DNA of 64,000 nucleotides. It comes from Halobacillus sp. Marseille-Q1614 (lineage in GTDB: Bacteria > Bacillota > Bacilli > Bacillales > Halobacillaceae). Both the position numbers and the translations under genes were made by a program. A model generated the notes under the pieces. It ran no database searches. It saw nothing but the letters and a program-made list of their open reading frames with translations, and was not told the DNA's origin. The stretch covers positions 3,720,001 through 3,784,000 of the forward strand of contig NZ_CADDWH010000001.1 in NCBI RefSeq assembly GCF_902809865.1, written 5' to 3'. Below are positions 42,588 to 64,000 of the stretch, piece after piece (positions within the stretch are counted from its first letter, which is position 1; every line of letters starts with the position of its first letter).

Positions 42588-42646
42588 AGCATAATCACCC
42601 TCTTCTCGGTCAAACTAGTAAAAAAGAGAAGAGGTGATTTTTTATG
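42588..42646 (+). promoter_or_regulatory. Forespore-type promoter embedded in a terminator that also hides the ribosome site
   Basis: AGCATA (42588-42593), 17 bases and CAAACTA (42611-42617) match sigma-G/F promoters. AATCACCCTCTTCTC (42593-42607) pairs with GAGAAGAGGTGATT (42626-42639; one bulged C), and TTTT and the ATG follow directly. Thus the 5' arm is the promoter spacer, the -10 lies in the loop, and the 3' arm is the ribosome site. Confidence 0.7.
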
Positions 42647-43036: not shown

Positions 43037-43130
43037 GGAACTGAATTCCTGCTCCTTTTACTCGACGTGGTTGTAACCGTAACGGCTCTATAATATAATT
43101 GTACTGTTATGGAGAAAGAGGTGCATACCA

Positions 43131-44201
43131 TTGATCGAACGTTTACAAACCCTTGAAGATCGTTATGAAAAATTAAATGAATTGCTCAGCGATCCTGAAG
43201 TAATTTCTGATACAAATAAGCTGCGTGAATACTCGAAAGAACAATCCGGTTTACAAGAAACGGTGGCGGCTTACCGCGAGTATAAAGAAGTCATCGAACA
43301 GCTGGATGATGCGAAAGCCATGCTGAGTGAAAGCCTGGACGACGACATGGAAGAGATGGTGAAAGAAGAAATCTCCGAACTGTCCGAACGCAAGACAGAG
43401 CTTGAGGAAAGACTGAAGGTTCTTATGCTTCCTTCTGACCCGAACGATGACAAGAACGTTATCGTAGAGGTCCGCGGTGCAGCCGGTGGTGACGAAGCCG
43501 CTTTATTTGCGGGTGACTTGTACCGTATGTACGCACGATATGCGGAATCTCAAGGCTGGAAAATCGAAGTCATTGAGTCTACGTCCAACGAAGTCGGCGG
43601 CTATAAAGAGATTATCTTTATGATTAAAGGTAACCGTGCCTATTCTAAAATGAAATTCGAAAACGGAGCGCACCGTGTTCAGCGTGTACCGGAAACCGAA
43701 TCAGGAGGTCGTATTCATACATCCACAGCGACAGTGGCTGTACTTCCTGAAGCGGAAGAGGTAGAGGTTGAAATTCACGATAAAGATATCCGTGTTGACA
43801 CGTTTGCCTCAAGCGGACCTGGCGGACAGAGTGTAAACACGACGATGTCAGCCGTACGATTGACACACGAACCAACTGGAATCGTTGTTTCCTGTCAGGA
43901 TGAAAAATCCCAGATTAAGAACAAGGAAAAAGCAATGAAAGTTCTTCGTGCCCGTGTTTATGATAAGTTCCAGCGCGAAGAACAGGCAAAACTGGATGAA
44001 ACACGTAAATCCGCTGTCGGCACCGGAGACCGCTCTGAGCGTATCCGTACGTACAACTTCCCGCAGTCCCGTGTATCCGATCACCGCATCGGTCTTACGC
44101 TTCAGAAGCTTGACCAGATTCTGCAAGGGAACTTGGATGAGATTTTGGATGCTCTGATTATGGAAGAACAAGCGAAGAAACTGGAAGCGATCGGAGAATA
44201 A
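43131..44201 (+). CDS. prfA: Peptide chain release factor 1
   Basis: This 356-residue factor has a codon-reading PxT motif in [10 protein letters not shown] (about 184) and the peptidyl-tRNA hydrolysis GGQ in [11 protein letters not shown] (about 229), whose Gln is methylated by PrmC encoded next. The start is TTG 43131 ([19 protein letters not shown]) after AAAGAGGTG, as homologues begin there. It reads UAA and UAG. Confidence 0.96.
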
Positions 44202-44203
44202 TT

Positions 44204-45043
44204 ATGGTTTTTACTACGATTGAAGAAGCCCGCCGCTGGGCTTCTCTTTTTTTAAAAGAATATGACCGTGAACCACGCGTCGCCGACCTCTTGTTAGAGG
44301 ATATTCTGGATTTGAGCTTTGCGATGCTGCTTGCTTACGGACGGGATCCTTTACCTCAGGAGCTGAAAAATTCTTTTATTGAAAAAGTAAAAGAGCACGC
44401 CGAAACGGGAAAACCGGTTCAGCACATTATCGGCCGCGCTCACTTTTACGGACGTGAGTTTAATGTTAATGAACACGTCCTGATTCCTAGGCCGGAAACC
44501 GAAGAGCTGATCGATGGCGTCCTTTCGCGTCTTGTGCCAAGTGACCAAACAATCGCAGATATCGGCACAGGCAGCGGCATTATTGCTGTGACACTTCAGC
44601 TTGAAACAGGACGCCGCGTCATCGCGAGCGATATCTCGCCGGAAGCTGTGCAAACCGCACAAGCCAATGCGAAGCAGCAAGGTGCTTCGATCGACTGGCG
44701 AACTGGAGATTTCCTTGAGCCATTACACAATGCTGCGATTGATGTTCTTGTTTCAAACCCGCCGTATATTGATCGATCGGAACCGCTTCATGATACCGTG
44801 AAAAATTATGATCCATCTCTCGCTCTTTTTGCTGATAATGAAGGATTGGCCGCCTATGAAACCATCCTTACCCAAGTTAAAAAGAGAGAGCAGAAGCCTA
44901 GGCTGATCGCTTTTGAAATCGGCTATCAGCAGGGTGAAGCAGTTAAAGGGATCATTCAAACGATTCTAGGAAACTATCAAGTCACGATTGAAAAGGATAT
45001 TAACGGAAAAGACCGAATGGTTTTCGCAATTCAAGATTCATAG
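44204..45043 (+). CDS. prmC: Release factor glutamine N5-methyltransferase
   Basis: This 279-residue AdoMet enzyme has an N-terminal helical domain (about 1-75), motif I ADIGTGSGIIAVTLQLE (about 113-129) and catalytic NPPY in LVSNPPYIDRSE (about 184). It begins two bases after the prfA stop, so the pair is co-transcribed. Its last codons overlap the -35 region of the spoIIR promoter. It is the HemK/YwkE equivalent. Confidence 0.95.
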   Translation: MVFTTIEEARRWASLFLKEYDREPRVADLLLEDILDLSFAMLLAYGRDPLPQELKNSFIEKVKEHAETGKPVQHIIGRAHFYGREFNVNEHVLIPRPETEELIDGVLSRLVPSDQTIADIGTGSGIIAVTLQLETGRRVIASDISPEAVQTAQANAKQQGASIDWRTGDFLEPLHNAAIDVLVSNPPYIDRSEPLHDTVKNYDPSLALFADNEGLAAYETILTQVKKREQKPRLIAFEIGYQQGEAVKGIIQTILGNYQVTIEKDINGKDRMVFAIQDS

Positions 45044-45101
45044 GTTTAAAAAATTCCTCCCCGGGCCACAATGGTTATCAACAGGGAGGGATTTTTTTAT
45101 G
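45043..45101 (+). promoter_or_regulatory. Sigma-F-type promoter of spoIIR embedded in a terminator/ribosome-site hairpin
   Basis: GTTTA (45044-45048), 15 bases and GGCCACAATG (45064-45073) match the sigma-F consensus GYWTA-N15-GGNRANAHTR at 14 of 15 positions. AAAAAATTCCTCCC (45048-45061) pairs with GGGAGGGATTTTTT (45084-45097) with one G-U pair, and the ATG follows at 45099. The layout equals that at 42588-42646. Confidence 0.8.
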
Positions 45102-45713
45102 AAAAATGCAATCATACCTATACTTATTATTTTTATTACTGTTACAAGTCTTTTATATGGAACACCGGAAGAAAAAGTAAGCGGGGCTGAATATCAAGTG
45201 ATCCCTGATGAAGCGATCCGCTTGAGAATCTTGGCCGACAGCAACGATGACGCGGCACAGGCACTAAAAAGAGAAGTGCGTGACCGCGTGAATGCTGAAA
45301 TCACGACATGGGTGGAATCTTTAACATCGATTGAAGCAGCCAGAATACTGATTCAAAGCCGTTTAGGAGAAATTGAAGAGATTGTCGGTGAGACAGTAGC
45401 AGATTATGGGGTTAAGCAAAGTTATCAAGTCGATTACGGAAAATCCGTCAAATTCCCGACGAAAATGTATGGATCTTACATTTACCCGGCCGGTGAGTAT
45501 GAAGCGATTTTAATTACAATAGGGGAAGGGGAAGGCGATAATTGGTGGTGTGTGTTGTTTCCGCCGCTATGCTTCCTTGATTTTTCAAACGGAGCTTCTG
45601 TTGCAGAAGCAGCAGAAACAGAAGATTCCAAAGAAGAGCCTGAAGTACAGGAACAGCAAGAAGAAGAAGTTGAGTTCTTTCTCGTAAAACTATGGAATAA
45701 ATTATTTTCCTAG
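45099..45713 (+). CDS. spoIIR: Stage II sporulation protein R
   Basis: This 204-residue protein has an N-terminal secretion/anchor helix (about 2-20), then the conserved DEAIRLRILADSNDDAAQAL (about 35-54) and YGSYIYPAGEYEAILITIGEG (about 126-146), and an acidic tail. SpoIIR is secreted from the forespore to trigger SpoIIGA processing of pro-sigma-E. ATG 45099 is used; the longer frame from 44988 overlaps prmC and lacks a ribosome site. Confidence 0.93.
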   Translation: MKNAIIPILIIFITVTSLLYGTPEEKVSGAEYQVIPDEAIRLRILADSNDDAAQALKREVRDRVNAEITTWVESLTSIEAARILIQSRLGEIEEIVGETVADYGVKQSYQVDYGKSVKFPTKMYGSYIYPAGEYEAILITIGEGEGDNWWCVLFPPLCFLDFSNGASVAEAAETEDSKEEPEVQEQQEEEVEFFLVKLWNKLFS

Positions 45714-45764
45714 CATAACAGCCGTCCCTGATTCATAGAGTGGTAGAGAAAGGCGGTGGCGTTT

Positions 45765-46094
45765 ATGTATATTGAAAAATTAAAAGATGGAAAAGAAAGC
45801 GAATATGCGATCAAACAAAAGCATGAAGACATAGGAACGTTTATTTTAGATGACCAGGGTAATGGGATAAAAAGGCTGAGAAGACTGCAGCTCGATGGAA
45901 ATGTTACGACAACAGGCATTCTCTATATTTTTGAACTGATCCAGACGTACGCGAAAATAGAAGAACTGCGTGAACTTCAAGTGAAAAGTCATTCACAGGA
46001 GCTCAGCACCATCCTTAAACATCAGCAGTTCGTCCTCTGTAATCAAAAGGAGCAGCTGTGGACATACACAGTGGATTGTGGAAAAGTGGAGTAG
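45765..46094 (+). CDS. Small protein of unknown function, possibly GNAT-like
   Basis: This 109-residue protein is placed between spoIIR and ywlC, where B. subtilis has ywlA and ywlB. The C-terminal part (TTGILYIFELIQTYAKIEEL, then ILKHQQFVLCNQKEQLW) is reminiscent of the end of a GNAT acetyltransferase such as YwlB, but the acetyl-CoA loop is not evident. ATG 45765 follows GGCGGTGG; GTG 45756 overlaps it. Confidence 0.6.
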   Translation: MYIEKLKDGKESEYAIKQKHEDIGTFILDDQGNGIKRLRRLQLDGNVTTTGILYIFELIQTYAKIEELRELQVKSHSQELSTILKHQQFVLCNQKEQLWTYTVDCGKVE

Positions 46095-47340: not shown

Positions 47341-47346
47341 TCATAT

Positions 47347-47394
47347 GCCTCCTTCTCGGCGCATACGCTACATTAGCATGTCCGAGGAGGAGGC
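47347..47394 (+). terminator. Hairpin after ywlC whose 3' arm is the mntP ribosome site
   Basis: GCCTCCTTCTCGG (47347-47359) pairs with CCGAGGAGGAGGC (47382-47394), one G-U pair, followed by TTTCAA and the TTG start at 47401. The AGGAGG of mntP is buried in the stem. Confidence 0.75.
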
Positions 47395-47400
47395 TTTCAA

Positions 47401-47943
47401 TTGGAAATAGAGAATATCACGTCATTAGTGCTTTTATCGATTGCGCTGGGAATGGATGCTTTTTCGGTGTCCCTTGGAATGGGGATGCAGTCGATCCGCT
47501 TAAAGTATATTGGACTGGCCGGTCTATTTGTAGGCGTGCTGCATATGGTCATGCCGGGATTAGGGATATTACTAGGCAAATGGCTTTTCGTAAACGTAAC
47601 GGAGTGGGCTTCCCTAGCCGGAGGCTTCCTGCTGCTGACAATTGGCGCCTATACCGTGTTTGCTTCTTTTTCGGAAAAGAAATCAACCGCTTATTCCGTG
47701 ACAGGAGCAGGGATGTGGCTGTTTGCGTTTAGTGTGAGCATTGACAGCTTTCCGGTCGGTTTCAGTCTCGGGCTTAACAATGCGAGCTTTATCTTTGCGA
47801 TATTAGCCTTTGGCTTCATGAGTACCGTTCTTACATGGCTTGGTTTTTTTGTCGGCCGAAGAGCGACGAATTTTGTCGGGGCTTACAGTGAGCTGTTTGG
47901 CGGCAGTATCTTATGTGCACTGGGGCTTTATGCAATATTTTAA
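47401..47943 (+). CDS. mntP: Manganese efflux pump MntP family (YwlD)
   Basis: This 180-residue protein with six membrane helices shows the repeated acidic LGMDAFSVSLGMG (about 16-28) and SIDSFPVGFSLGL (about 116-128) motifs of MntP. The start is TTG 47401. The only good ribosome site is inside the hairpin described above. The position after ywlC matches ywlD of B. subtilis. Confidence 0.9.
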   Translation: MEIENITSLVLLSIALGMDAFSVSLGMGMQSIRLKYIGLAGLFVGVLHMVMPGLGILLGKWLFVNVTEWASLAGGFLLLTIGAYTVFASFSEKKSTAYSVTGAGMWLFAFSVSIDSFPVGFSLGLNNASFIFAILAFGFMSTVLTWLGFFVGRRATNFVGAYSELFGGSILCALGLYAIF

Positions 47944-63810: not shown

Positions 63811-63912
63811 AAAGAATACGTTGTCTAAAGATGTCGCCAATTAACTCGTATGAAATCCTCTGTCTTCGTTCAAACTTGTAGGTATACAAGAAAAGAATGG
63901 GGAGAGATACAT

Positions 63913-64000
63913 ATGAAGTTTTTTTGGATTTGTTCAATCGTCGCCGTCGTACTAGGGGTAGGTGTTCATCCACAGGGAAAGGCTGAAGGCTGGAGCGAGG
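63913..64000 (+). CDS. ywmB: Start of a YwmB-like exported protein (cut by window edge)
   Basis: The first 29 residues form a signal peptide: Lys after Met, a hydrophobic core WICSIVAVVLGVGV and a polar region HPQGKAEGW. GGGGAGAG precedes the ATG by nine bases. The name rests on gene order (atpC-ywzB-ywmB) more than on sequence. Confidence 0.65.
   Translation, partial: MKFFWICSIVAVVLGVGVHPQGKAEGWSE

Follow-up and report, generated by a model that had tools for sequence, protein, structure and literature searches.

In transposase genes of the IS10/IS50 type, external transcripts fold over the ribosome site of the transposase. A read-through hairpin at sigG (spoIIIG) of Bacillus subtilis was reportedly described by Masuda in 1988 and by Sun in 1991. 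According to a later account, the forespore promoter of this gene lies inside a large hairpin in which the Shine-Dalgarno sequence (SD) is paired in RNA from spoIIG, and RNA from the gene's own promoter cannot form this hairpin (PMC5942855). For the lysozyme gene e of phage T4, the long early RNAs carry an SD-sequestering helix (about 100-fold effect), whereas the late RNA is free because its promoters are located within the DNA for the 5' strand of this helix (PMC3014915). The type of mechanism considered here is already known from these two genes.

In the stretch of DNA analyzed in this study (64 kb, referred to as the window), spoIIR is located directly behind the prfA-prmC operon (Table 1). 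The gene was identified by the NCBIfam equivalog TIGR02837 with 182 bits, compared to a cut-off of 152, and the preceding prmC stop codon is TAG, with its last base at 45043. The -35 and -10 elements of spoIIR correspond to the consensus of the sigma-F regulon with a spacer of 15 nt, and the promoter is located within the DNA that encodes the hairpin. The degenerate sigma-F consensus GYWTA-N15-GGNNANANTR was found only once in the window, at the spoIIR promoter (0.28 matches expected). The spoIIR-type pattern GTTTA-N15-GNCCANAMTR has a single match in the whole genome, which is again this promoter; the reversed pattern also gave one match. The layout given in the initial annotation, GTTTA-N15-GGCCACAATG followed by the SD and a U-tract abutting the ATG, is borne out by the sequence positions.

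Table 1. Positions of the spoIIR leader elements, the upstream operon and further genes of the same layout in the window.
Feature	Position	Strand	Remarks
Sigma-A-like promoter TTGTAA-N17-TATAAT	43071-43099		In front of prfA
prfA (release factor 1)	43131-44201	+	First gene of upstream operon; TIGR00019 match
prmC	44204-45043	+	Co-directional; ends one base before spoIIR -35; TIGR03534 match
Sigma-F -35 element GTTTA	45044-45048	+
spoIIR promoter spacer	45049-45063		15 nt
5' arm of read-through hairpin	45048-45061	+	Encoded by promoter spacer; core UUCCUCCC at 45054-45061
Sigma-F -10 element GGCCACAATG	45064-45073	+	Inside hairpin loop
Predicted sigma-F transcription start	45080	+	7 nt after -10
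spoIIR SD	45084-45091	+	Hairpin 3' arm; GGGAGGG at 45084-45090
T7 tract	45092-45098	+	Abuts ATG; putative terminator U-tract, genus-specific
spoIIR coding sequence	45099-45713	+	ATG 45099-45101
YhcN/YlaJ-like sporulation lipoprotein gene, same layout	42589-42646	+	z -5.3
Its putative forespore-type promoter			GCATA 42589-42593; spacer arm 42594-42607; -10 GGTCAAACTA 42608-42617
Its SD arm	42626-42638		T6 42638-42643 abutting ATG 42644
MntP/YtaF-like gene, same layout	47341-47403	+	z -6.7; very strong SD hairpin
Its putative sigma-E-like promoter			TCATATG 47341-47347; spacer arm 47348-47361; CATACGCT 47362-47369
Its SD arm	47385-47394		TTG start 47401; U-tract absent
spoIIT (ywmB), same layout	63848-63915	+
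Its putative sigma-F-like promoter			GTATG 63848-63852; spacer 63853-63867; GTTCAAACTT 63868-63877; ATG 63913

For the read-through RNA, the MFE structure comprises a stem of 14 bp between 45048-45061 and 45084-45097 (-20.3 kcal/mol) with a fold z of -2.5, and 4 of 200 shuffled sequences folded as well. The loop of 22 nt contains the -10 element and a small inner helix. The 14-bp stem with the -10 element in its loop, as initially described, is thus recovered by the MFE fold, but the outer six of these pairs are A-U and involve the U-tract itself, which leaves 8 bp as the stem core preceding the U-tract (UUCCUCCC/GGGAGGGA). The 3' arm contains the SD, and the 5' arm lies upstream of the predicted transcription start.

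The accessibility of the SD was expressed as opening cost, which is the free energy required to make the SD unpaired, since the unpaired fraction has a small dynamic range. The promoter, start codon and SD were located in each leader, and the cost was computed for the read-through RNA and for the sigma-F RNA, which was modelled from 7 nt after the -10 element. For spoIIR in the window, the predicted cost is 17.4 kcal/mol in the read-through RNA compared to 3.1 (about 3-4) kcal/mol in the sigma-F RNA, and the results were unchanged when the assumed start was moved by -5 to +3 nt. None of the 60 swapped and none of the 60 spacer-shuffled versions reached the native value. This is rank 3 of 57 among the genes of the window, after the YhcN/YlaJ-like (42644) and the MntP/YtaF-like (47401) genes. 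Among 1409 ORFs with an SD, from 1.66 Mb of the genome taken as stretches, the median was 4.1 and the 99th percentile 16.0 kcal/mol.

We consider it likely that the spoIIR element acts as a self-insulating promoter, with a layout that recurs at sporulation genes located behind a co-directional gene. RNA reading through from prfA-prmC would form a hairpin in which the promoter spacer, as the 5' strand, pairs with the spoIIR SD as the 3' strand; since such RNA carries both arms, its SD would be hidden and SpoIIR would not be translated from it. Forespore RNA from the sigma-F promoter would start inside the loop, lack the 5' strand and be translated. In the window's genus, the added U-tract probably allows the same hairpin to terminate part of the read-through as well. 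As a recurrent device, it would also serve sigG, spoIIT, spoIIP, the YhcN/YlaJ lipoprotein gene and the MntP/YtaF-like gene, with promoters of the forespore or sigma-E type. The benefit of silencing leaked spoIIR RNA is clear, because sigma-E is triggered in growing cells that are made to co-express SpoIIR, SpoIIGA and pro-sigma-E artificially (PMC4703394). SpoIIT assists SpoIIR (PMC4703394). The claim of the initial annotation that one short element enforces compartment-specific synthesis was too strong, since this is done by sigma-F; the role of the hairpin would be to eliminate the leak from prfA-prmC.

For the analysis of conservation, spoIIR leaders were collected by genome searches (131 read, 128 placed, 127 used) and assigned to 33 lineage groups, which are not fully independent phylogenetically. 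Three null sets were used, namely promoter halves from other families (swap), shuffling of the spacer only and shuffling of the whole upstream half. The group means were 12.7 kcal/mol for the native read-through RNA and 1.9 kcal/mol for the sigma-F RNA (33 groups, 127 leaders), whereas the null means for the read-through RNA were 8.7 (swap), 9.0 (spacer shuffle) and 6.7 kcal/mol (whole shuffle). The native cost exceeded the swap in 30 of 33 groups (p=5.6e-6) and the spacer-only shuffle in 29 of 33 groups (p=1.6e-8). Because native spoIIR halves pair better than lineage-swapped halves, the sequestration of the SD looks to be under selection. Within the family, promoter halves from other genera reduced the opening cost of the window's genus from 17.1 to 5.5-9.8 kcal/mol. 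The breaking of the pairing by these swaps and the predicted opening costs both agree with the earlier proposal of an SD that is hidden in the read-through RNA and free in the sigma-F RNA.

GTTTA or a close variant is found upstream of spoIIR throughout the order, and the promoter is present in nearly all relatives with a spacing of 14-15 nt and nearly invariant -35 and -10 elements. The spacer varies yet pairs again with the SD, as in UUCCUCCC/GGGAGGGA of the window and CUCCCUGUCC/GGGACAGGGAG of Halobacillus; in many other families, GUCC pairs with GGAC. In Halobacillus and Thalassobacillus, which lack the U-tract, the 5' arm has been shifted in part to the -10 region, yet the SD is still paired. 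The arms re-pair in shifted registers, and therefore column-wise covariation within the window's genus was uninformative and half-swaps were used in its place. The covariation of the arms suggested initially as a check was observed in this form: relatives differ in their arm sequences but retain the pairing, the position of the -10 element and the promoter spacing. In the B. subtilis relatives B. mojavensis, B. tequilensis and B. velezensis, the spoIIR values are 15-17.5 compared to about 5. Sequestration is not essential, because the order groups f29 and f21 have kept the sigma-F promoter of spoIIR and lost the sequestration, which is weak in f13; it is also absent in Pontibacillus salipaludis (score 2.0). 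The plus strand folded better in 27 of 33 groups, yet this asymmetry, as expected from G-U pairs, was not significant against the swapped controls (p=0.07).

An extended SD, AAGGACGGTG, with one conserved interrupting C was observed in the spoIIR leaders L055, L057, L060, L063, L065, L066, L069, L086, L094, L100 and L113. The conserved C pairs with the G of the -10 sequence GTCC, and it is missing from the SD of the leaders with a GGCGAGACT -10 element (L059, L074, L075, L114).

A run of 5-7 T between the SD and the ATG of spoIIR was found in all 11 species of the window's genus. Outside of this genus it was identified in one g5 species (6 T) and one g2 species (4 T), both of sister genera; Halobacillus, Thalassobacillus and almost all other members of the order lack it. 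From this distribution, the U-tract and with it the putative terminator is a local addition, while the sequestration of the SD is the widely kept feature. As in ordinary intrinsic terminators, a G+C-rich core stem is directly followed by a U-tract (T7). Unlike these, the hairpin has no compact form with a short loop: the 22-nt loop holds an inner helix and the promoter -10, the 3' arm is the SD, and the U-tract is not conserved beyond the genus. The hairpin was not listed by the terminator scan, which covered loops of 3-8 nt and gave no other terminator-like site between prmC and spoIIR. Of the initial terminator claim, the stem with T7 stands, but the loop is far above textbook size and the U-tract is almost confined to the genus and the two further species; termination in the window's genus is plausible. 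A strong terminator-like hairpin of 9 bp with a loop of 4 and the tail CTTTTTTTAA was also observed at 44224-44245, 20 nt inside the prmC coding sequence, and might be a polarity site when prmC is untranslated.

The same layout was found at three further genes of the window (Table 1), for which the promoter classes (sigma-E, sigma-F, sigma-G) are putative assignments from a consensus judged by eye. The hairpin of the MntP/YtaF-like gene is kept in the family by compensatory change. At the family level, the mean opening costs of native leaders and shuffles were 14.6 and 6.7 kcal/mol for sigG, 14.3 and 6.2 for spoIIT (30 relatives), 17.6 and 7.6 for spoIIP, 16.4 and 9.4 for the mntP-like gene and 10.3 and 5.3 for the yhcN-like gene, which is strong in the window's genus. 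For gpr (6.7 and 4.6) and yyaC (5.6 and 5.4), which have a divergent neighbor, the layout is weak or absent. The native leader exceeded the cross-genus swap in 29 of 30 spoIIT, 22 of 22 spoIIP and 24 of 28 mntP-like leaders, compared to 19 of 30 for gpr and 9 of 30 for yyaC, both at low absolute cost. For sigG the number was 18 of 28, where the swap carries little information since the arms are nearly invariant. At spoIIR (36/36 loci in the family) and sigG (28/28), the upstream neighbor is co-directional, and for spoIIR it could supply read-through RNA; gpr (30/30) and yyaC (30/30) have a divergent neighbor. This is as predicted by the insulation model. The gene after spoIIR (45710-45767) has no family match and an SD opening cost of 12.6; its leader has a possible weak sigma-E-like promoter and a fold z of only -1.3.

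In the genome survey, the opening cost exceeded that of the shuffles by 5 kcal/mol or more in 22 of 247 genes with a co-directional neighbor 45-130 nt away, compared to 8 of 350 divergent genes (p=2.9e-4). Only the tail differs, as the whole distributions of co-directional and divergent genes were not significantly different (p=0.10). Nine to ten of the 22 genes are sporulation genes, comprising SpoIIR, SigG, SigK, SpoIIP, SpoIIM, SpoVIF, YwmB/SpoIIT and two YhcN/YlaJ lipoproteins, as well as SpoVE, but with a small local hairpin only. Among 38 genes drawn at random from this class, no match to a sporulation-named family was obtained. The enrichment (9 of 22 versus 0 of 30, p=1.4e-4) is indicative, as the libraries used for annotation differed in part between the two sets.

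The device seems not to be confined to sporulation, because sigma-A-type genes such as recJ and an RTP-like gene are also among the high-excess genes. Sigma-A promoters appear to lie inside SD-sequestering hairpins at recJ, an RTP/PadR-like gene and uncharacterised genes of 141 and 196 aa (G000:C1 942798, 1285094, 1626707 and 3609636, respectively). For sigma-A -10 boxes, the loops of these high-excess genes contained 13 compared to 8.4 expected, which is not claimed as an enrichment. At an IS21 transposase gene (G000:C1 9400, L363), an SD-sequestering hairpin and a T run before the GTG start were observed, as expected for protection from outside read-through.

It could be argued that the hairpin is only the terminator of the prfA-prmC operon and that the promoter and SD of spoIIR overlap with it owing to genome compaction, with no translational meaning. 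This reading fits the T run after the stem in all 11 genus members and the lack of another terminator-like site in the prmC-spoIIR interval, but we regard it as unlikely, since most relatives keep the SD paired without a U-tract, the same layout exists at sporulation genes that lack a U-tract, and terminators usually have a much smaller loop. A by-product of base composition, in which pyrimidine-rich spacers always pair with a purine-rich SD, seems improbable. Swapped and shuffled leaders do still require 7-9 kcal/mol for opening, but native leaders surpass the spacer-only shuffles and the swaps in 29 and 30 of 33 groups, gpr and yyaC of the same genomes do not show the pairing, and the high-excess tail is concentrated on genes with a co-directional neighbor at promoter distance.

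The inverted repeat might also serve as an operator at the DNA level, bound by a regulator, or as a structure acting within the sigma-F RNA itself. The long near-palindrome in Halobacillus leaders would suit this, as would the separate small hairpin at the RBS downstream of the start in B. subtilis sigG RNA (PMC5942855). However, the pairing is maintained between genera in spite of changes in the arm sequence, and the sigma-F RNA is predicted to be little structured at the SD (3.1 kcal/mol). In addition, the Rfam search gave no family at the spoIIR leader and only an L31 leader elsewhere in the window, so that we consider an operator or an own-RNA structure very improbable.

The self-insulating promoter could be one case of a design rule in the Bacillales, a generalization we favor by a little. 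In sporulation genes behind a co-directional gene, the promoter spacer would be under selection to be antisense to the SD of the same gene, the read-through RNA would be an undecoded isoform, and in some lineages the hairpin would have become a terminator. As part of this joint claim, the genes concerned would encode compartment-specific factors (SpoIIR, SpoIIT, SigG, SpoIIP and others) under forespore or mother-cell promoters. Sporulation needs signals like SpoIIR to be confined to one compartment, and many such genes are located directly behind generally expressed genes. The leak would be avoided without a separate terminator, the otherwise unused promoter spacer encoding the antidote. If general, this would account for sporulation promoters hugging start codons and would place a selective constraint on promoter spacers. 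Annotation would be affected as well, because abundant RNA over such genes would not necessarily indicate their expression.

The literature search yielded the sigG and T4 cases; for spoIIR, spoIIT and spoIIP it gave no report of such a layout, with most subscription papers outside its scope, and the layout at spoIIT, spoIIP, the YhcN/YlaJ lipoprotein gene and the MntP/YtaF-like gene is apparently unreported. Apparently new are also spoIIR itself with the order-wide evidence, the fused U-tract (putative terminator) in the window's genus and the apparent generality.

Among the known systems, B. subtilis sigG shares with spoIIR a forespore promoter inside an SD-sequestering hairpin; sigG of the window's own genome also has a read-through SD hairpin. 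In contrast to sigG, spoIIR would receive its read-through from a housekeeping operon and not from spoIIG, and in the window's genus it has a U-tract that abuts the ATG. For sigG, a second small RBS hairpin is described in the RNA from its own promoter. T4 gene e differs from spoIIR by the use of a phage late sigma factor instead of a sporulation sigma factor, and a terminator is not mentioned in the review passages on this gene (PMC3014915). The IS10/IS50 type, which resembles the hairpin at the IS21 gene of this genome, guards against promoters at the insertion site, whereas the spoIIR element would guard against a fixed upstream operon.
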